Below are positions 31,464-35,250 of a DNA stretch of 64,000 nt, in pieces. The DNA is taken from assembly GCA_017309275.1 (NCBI GenBank), contig JAFKLT010000053.1, forward strand, positions 1-64,000, given 5' to 3'. The notes below the pieces were generated by a model. It had not been told where the DNA came from. It saw only the letters and a list, made by a program, of their open reading frames with translations, and did no database searches. Origin of the DNA: Sphingomonadales bacterium. Lineage in GTDB: Bacteria > Pseudomonadota > Alphaproteobacteria > Sphingomonadales > Sphingomonadaceae. Within the stretch, counting starts at the first letter, position 1; each line of letters opens with the position of its first letter. Made by a program: the position numbers and the translations under genes.

Positions 31464-31492
31464 TTGTCACAACATTGTCATAATGGCGTCAC
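31464..31492 (+). promoter_or_regulatory. Pho-box-like array of three 11-bp direct repeats
   Basis: TTGTCAC (31464), TTGTCAT (31475) and GCGTCAC (31486) stand exactly 11 bp apart with 4-base spacers. This is the size and period of PhoB-binding sites, whose units resemble CTGTCAT. The array ends 58 bp before the NUDIX-DUF47 start. A possible minus-35 TTGTCA (31475-31480) with TGCAAT 17 bp downstream (31498-31503) would put the promoter on top of the array. Binding by PhoB is inferred; the regulator is not in the window. Confidence 0.6.
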
Positions 31493-31550: not shown

Positions 31551-32675
31551 ATGCGGCAGATCGCAGTTCTCCCTTATCGATTCGGCGGGTCCGACAAGGA
31601 TGGCCCGACCGAAATATTGCTCGTCACCTCGCGTGGTACGGGCCGCTGGGTGATTCCCAAGGGTAATCCGCTGACCGGAATGGACCGCCATAGCTCGGCG
31701 GCGATCGAGGCGGAGGAGGAGGCCGGCGTACTCGGGGCGGTATGCCCGACATCGATCGGCAGCTATGAATATCGCAAGCGCCGCGCGAATGGTGCGGCCA
31801 TCATGTACGATGTCGAGGTATTCCCGCTCGCGGTGACGCGCGAACTCGACGAATGGAAGGAAATGGACGAGCGCGAACGGCGTTGGTTCACGCTCGATCA
31901 GGCCGCTTCATCGGTCGACGAGCCCGATCTTCAGGCGATGATCCGGTCGTTCGGCGATCGCGGCTTTCGTGCCGCGGCGCAGCGGTCGGGCGTCGTCTTC
32001 AATGTTGCGGAAAAGACAGGGGTCAATCGCATGTTTGCCTGGTTTCAGCGCCTGCTTCCCAAGCAGGGCAATTTCTTCGAGCTGTTCGAGGCGCATGCGG
32101 CGACGCTGACCGCGGGGTCGGAAGCGCTCGCGCGGATGCTGCAGGGCGGCGACGGCATGGCGGACCATATCCAGGAGATCATCGAGCGTGAGCATGACGC
32201 GGACGCGATCACCCGCGAAGTGCTCCAGACGGTGCGCCGTACCTTCCTGACGCCCTTCGACCGCAGCGCGATCACCGACCTGATCGCGTCGATGGACGAT
32301 GCGATCGACGAGATGCAGAAAACCGCGGGCGCGGTCGACCTGTACGACGTCACCGAATTCGAGCCGGAGATGCGCGACATCGCCGGGATCATTGTCGACG
32401 CCGCGCGTCTGACTGCCGAGGCGCTGCCGCTGCTGCGCAATATTTCGGCGAACGGTCCGCGCCTGCACGAACTGACCGAGCGGCTGGTCCGCATGGAAGG
32501 GCACGCTGACGACATTCATGCTGCCGGCCTCAAGCGCCTGTTCAAGGAGCATGGCGAGGCGAACCCGACGCGCTTCCTGATCGCGCGCGAACTTTTCCGT
32601 CACCTCGAACGCGTCACCGACAGTTTCGAGGATGTCGCGAACGAAATCGACGGCCTGGTCATCGACCACGCGTAA
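31551..32675 (+). CDS. NUDIX domain fused to DUF47 (PhoU-like) phosphate-transport regulator
   Basis: A 374-residue fusion. Residues 1-140 are a NUDIX domain of the diphosphoinositol-polyphosphate-hydrolase-like type (WVIPKGN), with box positions E53, E56, E57 and G59 kept but the first Glu and the Arg replaced by Met44 and Ile52. Residues 161-374 are a full DUF47 helical domain (MFAWFQRLLPKQGNFFELFE, IIEREHDADAITREV), related to PhoU. No stop codon separates the parts; Met161 (32031) could be an internal start. The Pit transporter follows after 15 bp. In rhizobia the DUF47 gene (orfA) precedes pit without a NUDIX domain. Catalytic activity of the NUDIX part is uncertain. Confidence 0.85.
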   Translation: MRQIAVLPYRFGGSDKDGPTEILLVTSRGTGRWVIPKGNPLTGMDRHSSAAIEAEEEAGVLGAVCPTSIGSYEYRKRRANGAAIMYDVEVFPLAVTRELDEWKEMDERERRWFTLDQAASSVDEPDLQAMIRSFGDRGFRAAAQRSGVVFNVAEKTGVNRMFAWFQRLLPKQGNFFELFEAHAATLTAGSEALARMLQGGDGMADHIQEIIEREHDADAITREVLQTVRRTFLTPFDRSAITDLIASMDDAIDEMQKTAGAVDLYDVTEFEPEMRDIAGIIVDAARLTAEALPLLRNISANGPRLHELTERLVRMEGHADDIHAAGLKRLFKEHGEANPTRFLIARELFRHLERVTDSFEDVANEIDGLVIDHA

Positions 32676-32690
32676 GCGGGGGCGCTTCCG

Positions 32691-33704
32691 ATGCACGAAC
32701 TCGCTTTTCCCCTGCTCGTCGGCCTGATCCTGCTTGCGCTGGCGTTCGACTTTCTGAACGGCCTGCACGATGCGGCGAACAGCATCGCGACCGTCGTCGC
32801 GACGCGCCTGCTGCGGCCGGTCCAGGCGGTGATCTTTGCCGCCTTCTTTAACTTCGCGGCCTATTTCCTGTCGCTTGCCTTTCCCGAATTGCACAAGGTG
32901 GCGGAGACTATTGGGAAGGGGATTATCGACAAGGACCTAGTCACGCCCGCGGTCGTTTTCGGTGCGCTGGTCGGAGCGATGTTCTGGAATGTCGTGACCT
33001 GGCTCAAGGGCATTCCGTCGTCGTCCAGCCACGCGCTGGTCGGCGGAATCGTCGGTGCGGGCGTCGCGCATGCGGGGTTCGAGGGGATCCAGTGGACCGG
33101 CCTCAACAAGACCGTCATCGCGATCTTTCTGTCGCCGATGCTGGGCATGCTGCTCGCGATGCTGGTGATGTTGCTCAGCAGCTGGGCGCTGGCCCGCGCG
33201 AGTGCGAAATTCGCCGAAAGCACCTTTCGCACGCTACACCTTTTCTCGTCGGCGGCGTATTCGCTGAGCCACGGCCTCAACGACGCGCAAAAGACGATGG
33301 GCGTGATCACCGTCCTCCTTTATTCGACCGGCTATCTGTCGGGCGAGTTCCACGTTCCGCACTGGGTCGCGATCAGCTGTTATGTCGCGATCGGGCTCGG
33401 CACGCTGTCGGGCGGGTGGAAGATCATCGAGACGATGGGCGGCCGTATCACCAAGCTGTCGCACCACCAGGGCTTCGCGGCCTCGACCGGCGGGTCGATC
33501 ATGGTCTTCACCGCCAGCCTGCTGGGCATCCCCGTATCGACGACGCACACGATCACCGGCAGCATCATCGGCGCCGGCGTAGCGCGCCGCGCCAGCGCGG
33601 TGCGGTGGGGCGTGGCGAGCAACGTCGTCGCGGCCTGGTTCATCACCATTCCGGCCAGCGCGATGGTCGCCGCGGCCTTCTATGCGCTCACCCGGCTCTT
33701 CTGA
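32691..33704 (+). CDS. pit: Low-affinity inorganic phosphate transporter (Pit family)
   Basis: A 337-residue inner-membrane phosphate/proton (metal-phosphate) symporter with about ten helices. Both PiT signatures are visible: FDFLNGLHDAANSIATVV near the N-terminus and SLSHGLNDAQKTMGVI in the second half, plus SSSSHALVGGIVGAGV and STTHTITGSIIGAGVA. It is 15 bp downstream of the NUDIX-DUF47 gene and surely in its operon. A Pho-box-like array ahead of the operon suggests control by phosphate supply. Confidence 0.94.
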   Translation: MHELAFPLLVGLILLALAFDFLNGLHDAANSIATVVATRLLRPVQAVIFAAFFNFAAYFLSLAFPELHKVAETIGKGIIDKDLVTPAVVFGALVGAMFWNVVTWLKGIPSSSSHALVGGIVGAGVAHAGFEGIQWTGLNKTVIAIFLSPMLGMLLAMLVMLLSSWALARASAKFAESTFRTLHLFSSAAYSLSHGLNDAQKTMGVITVLLYSTGYLSGEFHVPHWVAISCYVAIGLGTLSGGWKIIETMGGRITKLSHHQGFAASTGGSIMVFTASLLGIPVSTTHTITGSIIGAGVARRASAVRWGVASNVVAAWFITIPASAMVAAAFYALTRLF

Positions 33705-35183
33705 TCAGCGCTTCGGCCGATAATCGACGCTGGCACCGCCGGTAAGGCGGACGGGCAGGTAGAGCCCGTTGCCATAGGCCTTTATTTCGCCCGTCTCGAA
33801 CCCGTCGATGCGCGTGCGGATGACGAAGGCACCCTCGCGCCGCTGATCGACCGCGCGCCTGATCTTGCCCTCCAGCCCTTCCAGATCGCGCGTGAAATTC
33901 TGGGTCAGGGCCTCCGCGATCAGCGGCGCAAAGCCTTCGCTGCGGCCGAGCAGGATCAACAGGTCGCCGCCGACGCCATCGGTGTCGCCATTGATGGCGA
34001 GATTGGTGAAGCGAACCTCGGCCGAGCCCGGCGCGTTCACGGGCGTCGCGGTCATCCAGATGCGGCCGCGTGTCGGCGCGCCGGTGCGGGCCTCGAGTCG
34101 CGCTTCGACGTCGGTGCCCACTGCGATCTTGCCATCGGGCGCGCCATAGACGGTCGACTTGCCGAACTTGACCATCATCGGACCAAGCTTGGGCAGGACG
34201 AAGGGTCGCGTGGCGCGTTTGGCCAATGCTCGGTCGATGACGGGCTGAAGCTGCGCATAGTCGGCGATCACGGGCACGCGGATGTCGAGATGCGGACGCG
34301 GCGTTTCGCGCACCAGCCTGGGCATCGGCGTCGGATCGGACGGCTCGGGCCGCTGCGATACGAAGGTTTCGGTGATGCCCTCGATCCCCAGATTCAGGTC
34401 CAGGCGATGCCCGTTCAGGCGATATCCGCCGTACAGGATGCGCTGCGGCGTGACGCGCATCCACACCGGCGGGTTTTCGCGATTGAGTTCGAGCACGGCA
34501 AAGCTCTGGCGCCAGATATCGGCCGCCTGGGCGCGGATATCGACCTTTGCGATCTCGCGATTAACCTCGCGTTCGACGTCGGCGATCACGGGTTTCAGCT
34601 TTGCGTCGGCCTCGTCGGTAAAGGTGATCCGCTTGCCGAGGAAATCGATTCCGGGGGCCTTCGTCCAGCCATAGGTGATGCGCGCCTTGCCGCGCAGCCG
34701 CCAATCGGACGACAGGTCGACCCGAATACGCGCGTGGGCCATTGCCGACCCGGTCGCCGTCTCGCCCTTCAGCACTCCGCCGACGTCGCGCGCGGCGATG
34801 GTGGCGTTGATCGGCACGTCGATGACGATTTCATTGCCTTCGCCGCGCAAGCGGAGCGGTCCGCGGGTCACCTGTCCAACGATCGTGCACGGAATCGCCG
34901 GTGTGACCTTGACCTTCTTGCCGAAGACCTTGACGCGCTGCGGCGCGACGCAGGCCTTTTCGCGGCGGTTGATCGTCCACAAGGTGCGCGGCACCGCGCG
35001 TTCCAGCTCGGCCTTCACCGGCGAGATATCGGCGTTGATCGGAACCGCTATCAGCGAGCGCTGACTGGGCGTGGGGGCGGTGTCGGTCGCGCGCGGCGGC
35101 GCTTCGTCTCCGCCCTTCGCCGGATCGCAGGCGGAGAGCGTCACCAGCAGGATCGTCGCGGTCAGCGCCTTGATGAAATGCAT
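33705..35183 (-). CDS. DUF4403 family lipoprotein
   Basis: A 492-residue predicted lipoprotein: the start at 35183 opens a signal peptide ending LVTLSAC, and an upstream ATG would add an unlikely extension. The body matches DUF4403: an N-terminal VPINADISPVKAELERAVPRTLW and long repetitive beta-rich sections (LRLRGEGNEIVIDVPI, ARIRVDLSSDWRLRGKARITYGW). The alternating amphipathic strands recall lipid-binding tubular (BPI/TULIP-like) folds, but that is speculation. It is convergent with pit, with no gap. Confidence 0.82.
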   Translation of the reverse strand: MHFIKALTATILLVTLSACDPAKGGDEAPPRATDTAPTPSQRSLIAVPINADISPVKAELERAVPRTLWTINRREKACVAPQRVKVFGKKVKVTPAIPCTIVGQVTRGPLRLRGEGNEIVIDVPINATIAARDVGGVLKGETATGSAMAHARIRVDLSSDWRLRGKARITYGWTKAPGIDFLGKRITFTDEADAKLKPVIADVEREVNREIAKVDIRAQAADIWRQSFAVLELNRENPPVWMRVTPQRILYGGYRLNGHRLDLNLGIEGITETFVSQRPEPSDPTPMPRLVRETPRPHLDIRVPVIADYAQLQPVIDRALAKRATRPFVLPKLGPMMVKFGKSTVYGAPDGKIAVGTDVEARLEARTGAPTRGRIWMTATPVNAPGSAEVRFTNLAINGDTDGVGGDLLILLGRSEGFAPLIAEALTQNFTRDLEGLEGKIRRAVDQRREGAFVIRTRIDGFETGEIKAYGNGLYLPVRLTGGASVDYRPKR

Positions 35184-35250
35184 GAAAAGCCCCTGATCGA
35201 TGCCTGTTTCTAACACCGATCGCTAAAGGCCGTTCCAACAAATGATCCGA

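Follow-up and report, generated by a model that had tools for sequence, protein, structure and literature searches.

A NUDIX-DUF47 fusion protein encoded before the Pit phosphate transporter suggests a new way of tuning phosphate balance in sphingomonads

Gene organization of the locus

The window analysed here is a 64,000-nucleotide stretch of DNA from a Sphingomonadales bacterium of the family Sphingomonadaceae, and its features that are of interest for this work are listed in Table 1. Based upon a reading of its open reading frames (ORFs), a NUDIX domain and a DUF47 domain of the PitR/Pap type are encoded one after the other in a single frame, and the next ORF, which specifies a protein of 337 aa, begins after a gap of 15 nt. 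The original prediction of an uninterrupted NUDIX-DUF47 frame of 374 codons before Pit is thus borne out by the ORFs and also by Pfam, where the NUDIX domain (PF00293, residues 19–125) scored 24.5 bits against a cut-off of 21.1, the PhoU_div/DUF47 domain (PF01865, residues 172–371) 138.3 bits against 24.4, and the ORF that follows 311.5 bits against 33.7 for PHO4. The score of the fusion with the NCBI model TIGR00153 was 55.2 bits, which is below the cut-off of 104.3, and due to its added NUDIX domain the protein differs from PitR and Pap, which have a single domain. A structure prediction, which had been proposed as a check, yielded two mostly confident domains (AlphaFold; mean pLDDT 83.4, pTM 0.83) separated by a floppy, low-confidence linker (residues 136–172).

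Table 1. Features of the NUDIX-DUF47-Pit locus in the window
Feature	Position	Strand	Details
Pho-box-like direct repeats	31464..31492	+	59-87 nt before start codon
NUDIX-DUF47 fusion gene	31551..32675	+	374 codons, ATG start
NUDIX domain, residues 1-135, DIPP-like	31551..31955	+	Pfam, PDB sequence match, model, fold
Nudix box, residues 38-60 (G38, M44, I52, E53, E56, E57, G59)	31662..31730	+	
Variable, low-confidence linker, residues 136-160	31956..32030	+	Alignment, pLDDT
SD-like AGGGG (32018-32022); the ATG of internal Met161 (32031-32033) follows after 8 nt	32018..32033	+	
DUF47/PhoU_div (PitR, Pap), residues 161-374	32031..32672	+	Pfam, fold, conservation
Acidic motifs of DUF47 domain			E214xxxD218, D249DxxD253, E316xxxD320, E353xxxD357
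Pit phosphate transporter (PHO4)	32691..33704	+	ORF, Pfam, neighbour count

As the fusion gene and Pit are on the same strand with only 15 nt between them, they probably form one operon. A search of the window's genome detected one DUF47 and one Pit and none besides these. A gene for a DUF4403 protein (33705–35216, reverse strand) lies convergent with Pit. The DUF47 half has a PhoU-like fold (3l39, TMt 0.92), and the acidic residues E214, D218, D249, D253, E316, D320 and E353 are present in all of the 198 fusion loci described below, with D357 present in 197. These acidic motifs of the DUF47/PhoU_div domain presumably have a role in metal binding.

Distribution of the fusion

A full-length fusion without an inner stop codon is found in 34 of the 36 genomes of the genus, that of the window counted; in the two remaining genomes, G015 has NUDIX only and G018, which is 85% complete, gave no match. 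In the sample from the family it is present in 91 of 298 genomes, with matches that extend from residue 1–19 to residue 374, and in the sample from the order, which overlaps with that from the family, in 54 of 296 genomes. All of these 54, and every one of the 78 matching genomes in the order sample, belong to the window's own family. Among the named contigs of the best 80 of 172 loci, the fusion occurs in Sphingopyxis, Sphingomonas, Novosphingobium, Sphingobium, Parasphingorhabdus, Altererythrobacter and their relatives. It had been recognized at the outset that a sequencing slip, or the restriction of the fusion to a single sequence, would refute it, and neither holds in the related genomes: that a sequencing or assembly slip joined two genes is refuted by the full-length frame in so many genomes of the family and the genus, has no point in its support (in G299 the opposite is seen, a frame that breaks within DUF47), and can be given virtually no credence.

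The mapping of neighbours for DUF47 proteins with an N-terminal NUDIX domain, another check that had been suggested, covered 198 fusion loci (L001–L135, L158–L160 and L207–L266), which come from two collections, include some genomes twice, and comprise 176 distinct DNA sequences. The fusion proved to be widespread, and 197 of these loci have Pit as the next gene in the same orientation; the sole locus without it (L062) is a sequence that ends 110 nt past the fusion. Outside the family, the fusion was absent from all 24 same-order genomes of other families, was limited in the class sample (385 genomes) to three genomes of the family f46, and was not seen further among the matches listed for the phylum sample (398 genomes). 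In our tree the f46 fusions (L158–L160) nest among those of the window's family, and they may have been acquired by horizontal transfer. The DUF47 partner in rhizobia had been expected to consist of DUF47 only, which we also take to be the case for Sinorhizobium meliloti orfA, and among the 30 listed of 545 plasmid matches the best-matching place in each Rhizobium record indeed begins no earlier than residue 114 and so covers mainly DUF47.

Unfused and partial arrangements

DUF47 without an attached NUDIX is present in 13 of the 298 family genomes, which indicates that NUDIX is dispensable for Pit. Twelve of them (L138–L149), which are dispersed over the tree, contain DUF47-Pit with no NUDIX in the stretch examined, and in the remaining one (G186; L136) NUDIX, DUF47 and Pit are separate genes that follow one another in this sequence, and a ribosome site lies between NUDIX and DUF47. 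Within the window's genus, the NUDIX gene of G015 (L137) lies between an FMO-like gene and rimO, as it does in the window, and the space between these two genes gave no match to DUF47, Pit or DUF4403 of the window; in G316 (L138), DUF47-Pit adjoins the same FMO-like gene without NUDIX. Both are members of the genus with small genomes, and they show reciprocal states at one locus. As judged from these gene contents, both halves have been lost separately within this genus. In addition, whole-genome searches detected neither Pit nor DUF47 in three genomes that have the NUDIX (G015, G176 and G211), and in two others (G152 and G191) NUDIX and a Pit were found but no DUF47. The coupling of NUDIX to Pit is therefore not obligatory, and the three genomes that lack both partners argue for NUDIX having a function of its own.

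In a tree of 125 rows the fused state changes six times, and at least five of these changes are required by well-supported branches; the bootstrap of this tree had not converged, and long branches were noted, so that the number of fusion origins is uncertain. Our reading of these results is one early fusion that was followed by repeated losses, and it is possible that in the ancestral state the genes were split.

Genomes from other families of the class were likewise searched. With f46 set aside, 16 genomes outside the family contain a DUF47 stretch, and 15 of these loci were examined (G625, at a contig edge, was left out). Pit adjoins DUF47 in all 15, and a NUDIX of the same subfamily is adjacent in six, where it is located after Pit (G410, G668, G490 and G588, the last three from one genus), before DUF47 (G393) or in divergent orientation (G524). 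The other nine have no adjacent NUDIX, and one of them (G683) ends just after Pit. In the phylum sample, at least 7 of the 33 DUF47 genomes from the same class and other families (G893, G988, G1053, G1035, G952, G964 and G393) have, by coordinates, a NUDIX within ~1.1 kb of DUF47; this is a lower bound because at most four candidates were scored per genome, and four of the 33 genomes, including G393, are also among the 15 loci above. For genomes of ~4 Mb that contain one or two NUDIX genes of this kind, we estimate that chance adjacency would predict far below one case. One plasmid record, from Lichenicola cladoniae (L206), covers 80% of the query; in it a separate NUDIX gene and a DUF47 in two annotated pieces are found among transposases, and no Pit is annotated in the 9.3 kb shown.

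These arrangements bear upon the possibility that operon neighbours became fused without any functional need, in which case NUDIX would share the phosphate-regulated mRNA and polypeptide but not act on Pit, its own role being nucleotide clean-up or the breakdown of Ap4A or polyP. The separability of the two halves in G015 and G316, the unfused gene order of G186 and the repeated changes into or out of the fused state are all in its favour. However, in other families of Alphaproteobacteria the same NUDIX subfamily lies next to DUF47-Pit in three different arrangements, which is difficult to explain without a functional tie, and we consider this possibility to be a substantial but rather unlikely one.

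Catalysis and substrate of the NUDIX half

The residues originally assigned to the Nudix box are numbered correctly, and G38 and G59 can be added to them. In comparison to the full box GX5EX7REUXEEXGU, the first Glu and the Arg are replaced and E53, E56 and E57 are kept, so that this part of the original prediction stands. Its further suggestion, that the replacements make the domain a sensor with reduced catalysis, is not supported by the 198 fusions. Position 44 varies freely (L in 99, M in 65, I in 17 and others) as does position 52 (I in 50, V in 41, H in 31, Q in 22 and others), whereas E53 and E57 never change and position 56 is Glu in 196 and Asp in 2. The first Glu is also missing in all 19 listed relatives from other families, and hence its absence is a trait of the subfamily; both the first Glu and the Arg, and with them the full canonical box, are found in the stand-alone NUDIX of the family in G015. 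Of 78 solved Nudix domains, 38 are described as lacking the full box, and some of these are hydrolases (PMC5389931).

Among PDB entries, the NUDIX half is matched best by DIPP1 in both sequence (phmmer 5.5e-6) and fold, followed by Mycobacterium smegmatis MutT1 and yeast DDP1, so that in addition to the Pfam score the fold is also that of the Nudix proteins DIPP1 and MutT1. The assignment of a substrate class rests upon an identity of ~25% to the DIPP-type structures. Several basic residues of this half are retained in the fusions (R32 and K76 in 198, K37 and R28 in 196). Inositol pyrophosphates are, to our knowledge, not established in these bacteria. In DDP1, S53, R58 and K63 are reported to be located at the phosphates of InsP6, polyP and Ap5A, with R58 for polyP only, and K63 is not conserved in the human DIPPs (PMC8064635). 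S27, R32 and K37, which are kept in the fusions, are putative counterparts of these residues, a correspondence that covers three positions and is based upon residue spacing.

Based upon these sequence and fold characteristics, we favour the view that the NUDIX half is a catalytically competent pyrophosphohydrolase, and that its substrate would be a phosphate-chain compound. A ligand sensor that lacks catalysis and tunes DUF47/Pit, close to what was originally envisaged, would be in accordance with the missing Glu and Arg, with the regulatory nature of DUF47 and with the existence of NUDIX sensors such as NrtR, the NUDIX domain of which is in row 47 of the fold matches. In view of the near-invariance of the three Glu residues in 198 sequences, the absence of the first Glu in the other-family relatives as well, and the three genomes that keep NUDIX without DUF47 or Pit, a sensor of this kind appears improbable.

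Pho-box-like sequence upstream of the fusion

The repeats preceding the fusion gene have an 11-bp period (TTGTCAC-AACA-TTGTCAT-AATG-GCGTCAC); the third, a weaker one, was identified by visual inspection, and the first two (31464–31481) have a score of 8.9. Scoring was based upon the Pho-box consensus, and for 139 dereplicated loci the highest score of a tandem heptamer in the 160 nt upstream was determined. A score of 8 or higher was obtained for 66 of them, as compared with 0.6% of base shuffles and none of 278 coding controls, and the other 73 scored below 8; of the top 60 loci, 32 are from the window's genus or near to it by identity. For nine NUDIX genes of the family outside the fusion, that of G186 counted (200 nt, score only), the scores were 9.2 (L137), 9.5 (L152) and, for the other seven, 5.6 to 6.9. 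Two of the three genomes that have NUDIX without DUF47 and Pit carry a Pho box before it. A promoter scan found no sigma-70-like site. The tandem repeat is likely to be a control site for phosphate starvation.

Apparent near-cognate start codons in the sister genera

The window's gene starts with ATG, and in the 74 loci with at least 80% identity, which represent its genus, the start is ATG in 56, GTG in 10 and TTG in 8. Among the 123 scored loci with less than 80% identity, the codon at this place in the alignment is ATT in 54, ATC in 36, ATA in 5, CTG in 1, ATG in 19, TTG in 2, GTG in 1 and another in 5 (G242, a full-length family locus, and L264 are left out of these counts). Of 33 genera, the window's own not included, 29 have at least one locus with an apparent AUU, AUC or AUA start, and 25 when the criterion is strict. 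Outside that genus the fusion thus in many cases apparently begins at AUU, AUC or AUA, and such a codon behind a Shine-Dalgarno (SD) sequence, with no canonical start, is seen in the sister genera but not in the window.

These codons could instead be ordinary internal Ile codons, with translation beginning upstream at another codon. Of the 96 near-cognate loci, 23 have an in-frame ATG, GTG or TTG within 12 codons upstream, and in relatives from outside the family the start lies at a more upstream position. However, none is found within 12 codons in the other 73, the upstream open frame of 52 contains none at all, and almost no room is left in L223, where a single codon (CCC) separates the stop from ATT, or in L239, with four codons before ATC. 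The SD core ends 4–14 nt before the codon in 66 of 81 dereplicated near-cognate cases, with a peak at 7–8 nt, as compared with a shuffled mean of 13.9 and maximum of 23, although shuffle figures overstate the certainty since related loci are not independent. Residue conservation also begins directly after the codon: no residue in codons −10 to −1 exceeds 24 of 81, whereas R2 is present in 69 and Q3 in 81 (conservation of codon 1 in this set is a product of its selection). In the first 41 loci, ATT accounts for 31 of 41 at codon 1 but only 61 of 856 Ile codons beyond codon 10; its share in codons 2–10 (10 of 38) is already higher than further in, which fits with an upstream start, and in the larger set it is 54 of 95 at codon 1. 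The Pit genes of these 41 loci have ATG at or within four codons of the aligned start in 40 cases and only GTG in one, which indicates that these genomes are not odd. We regard initiation further upstream as quite improbable.

NUDIX genes of the family outside the fusion also show ATC or ATT (L136, L137, L151–L154 and L205), with an ATG five codons upstream in L136 and a TTG nine codons upstream in L154. Among the 19 other-family relatives, one (L175) shows ATC, with an ATG seven codons upstream. Very few genes with non-canonical start codons are described as characterized; for two of them, infC (ATT, ATC) and Streptomyces sigR (GTC), IF3 represses these starts (PMC5472188). The fusion resembles infC and sigR in its apparent non-canonical start, which in sigR is conserved behind an extensive ribosome site; their starts have been shown by experiment (PMC5472188), whereas that of the fusion, a different gene in a different lineage, is deduced from sequence. 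Among the papers listed for AUU/ATC starts with Sphingomonas, titles and abstract openings revealed none on this gene. In the window's genome, infC (L267, ~1437–1464 of that locus, on the window's own contig C54 beyond the end of the window) has AGGAG 8 nt before ATA CCA CCG CCC ATG, the apparent ATA start lying 12 nt before the first in-frame ATG; we read it as a near-cognate start.

Possible internal start of DUF47

Residue 161 is Met in 170 of the 198 fusions and mostly V, I or L in the others, for which a packing constraint may also account. It aligns with the start of the unfused DUF47 genes (ATG in 9, GTG in 3 and none in 1 of 13), and the same AGGGG-type site precedes those of L138, L139 and L142. 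In 55 dereplicated fusions the mean anti-SD energy before codon 161 is −6.2 kcal/mol, as compared with −4.3 for synonymous shuffles (Wilcoxon p 3e-6) and −2.8 at other internal Met codons, with only 20% of the 55 individually below 0.05; codon 161 is other than ATG in 3 of them, and the internal-site motif searched for is absent in 43 of the 198 loci. A DUF47 start codon and a ribosome-site-like sequence thus persist inside most fusions, which is only suggestive of an internal start.

Proposed function

The fusion is a new form of Pit accessory regulator. On balance, and with only slightly better than even confidence, we interpret it as one that carries a competent NUDIX pyrophosphohydrolase of the DIPP type, is likely to be transcribed together with Pit, of which the cell has only one, and is controlled by PhoB. 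The fusion itself, the gene order, the residue conservation and the Pho-box-like sequence are observed directly; the role with Pit and the substrate are deduced. PhoB would control the transcription of the fusion gene and of Pit, and the DUF47 half, by analogy with PitR of Staphylococcus aureus, would work with Pit to report or limit the import of Pi. The NUDIX half would cleave a phosphate-rich metabolite, which may be polyphosphate or of the Ap5A/Ap6A type rather than an inositol pyrophosphate, and phosphate stores or a signal of phosphate status would thereby be set together with Pi uptake. In most sister genera the AUU/AUC start, which is of the kind gated by IF3, would apparently keep the full-length product low, and free DUF47 may come from the internal ATG, which has a ribosome site of its own.

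Carried further, this leads to a more tentative proposal of two products and two gates, which we consider possible but doubtful: transcription would be gated by PhoB, the IF3-gated AUU/AUC start would yield scarce NUDIX-DUF47, the internal ATG with its ancestral ribosome site would yield free DUF47, and a few polyphosphate-cleaving subunits would thus be mixed into the Pit regulator. If this is correct, it would be a phosphate regulator in which the ratio of enzyme to regulator is set by the choice of start codon. A family-wide AUU/AUC start, if true, would add a natural case of such initiation and caution that gene finders may misplace the start.

DUF47/PitR proteins act with Pit. A DIPP-type hydrolase that is fused to one of them and linked to Pho provides a direct candidate, open to testing, for a connection through metabolites between the import of phosphate and the pools of polyphosphate or dinucleotides in bacteria, for which DDP1 offers a parallel in yeast. 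The sphingomonad fusion suggests a new way of tuning phosphate balance.

Comparison with known systems

A literature search pairing Nudix with DUF47 gave matches of which one concerns DUF4743 and another describes separate genes. In the nudA, pap and pitH1 phosphate gene region, a NUDIX gene (nudA), DUF47 (pap) and Pit likewise occur together, but there they are separate genes and pap-pitH1 has no Pho box. The orfA-pit operon of S. meliloti is described as having a Pho box just upstream of its translation start and as being repressed by Pi starvation (Bardin et al., cited in PMC3131613). It is similar to the present locus as a Pit operon with a Pho box near the start, with which the repeat before the fusion is consistent, and differs in that its description there mentions no NUDIX domain (PMC3131613). 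DIPP1 of humans and DDP1 of yeast are alike to the NUDIX half as its best matches in sequence and fold and may be so, by spacing, in the putative counterparts of S53, R58 and K63 of DDP1 (PMC8064635); differences from them include the low identity, the lack of the first Glu and the Arg, the bacterial origin and the fusion to DUF47. A parallel for the DUF47 half is PitR of S. aureus, a DUF47/PhoU_div accessory regulator of PitA that is reported to influence Pho signalling jointly with its own transporter (PMC13170248). The word nudix is absent from the main text of that paper, and its PitR gene tree is described as built from sequences with a single PhoU_div domain, so that fusions such as these fall outside it (PMC13170248). 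The two proteins share the PhoU_div domain and a gene located with Pit, and PitR consists of this single domain (PMC13170248), whereas in the sphingomonads a NUDIX domain is joined to it.
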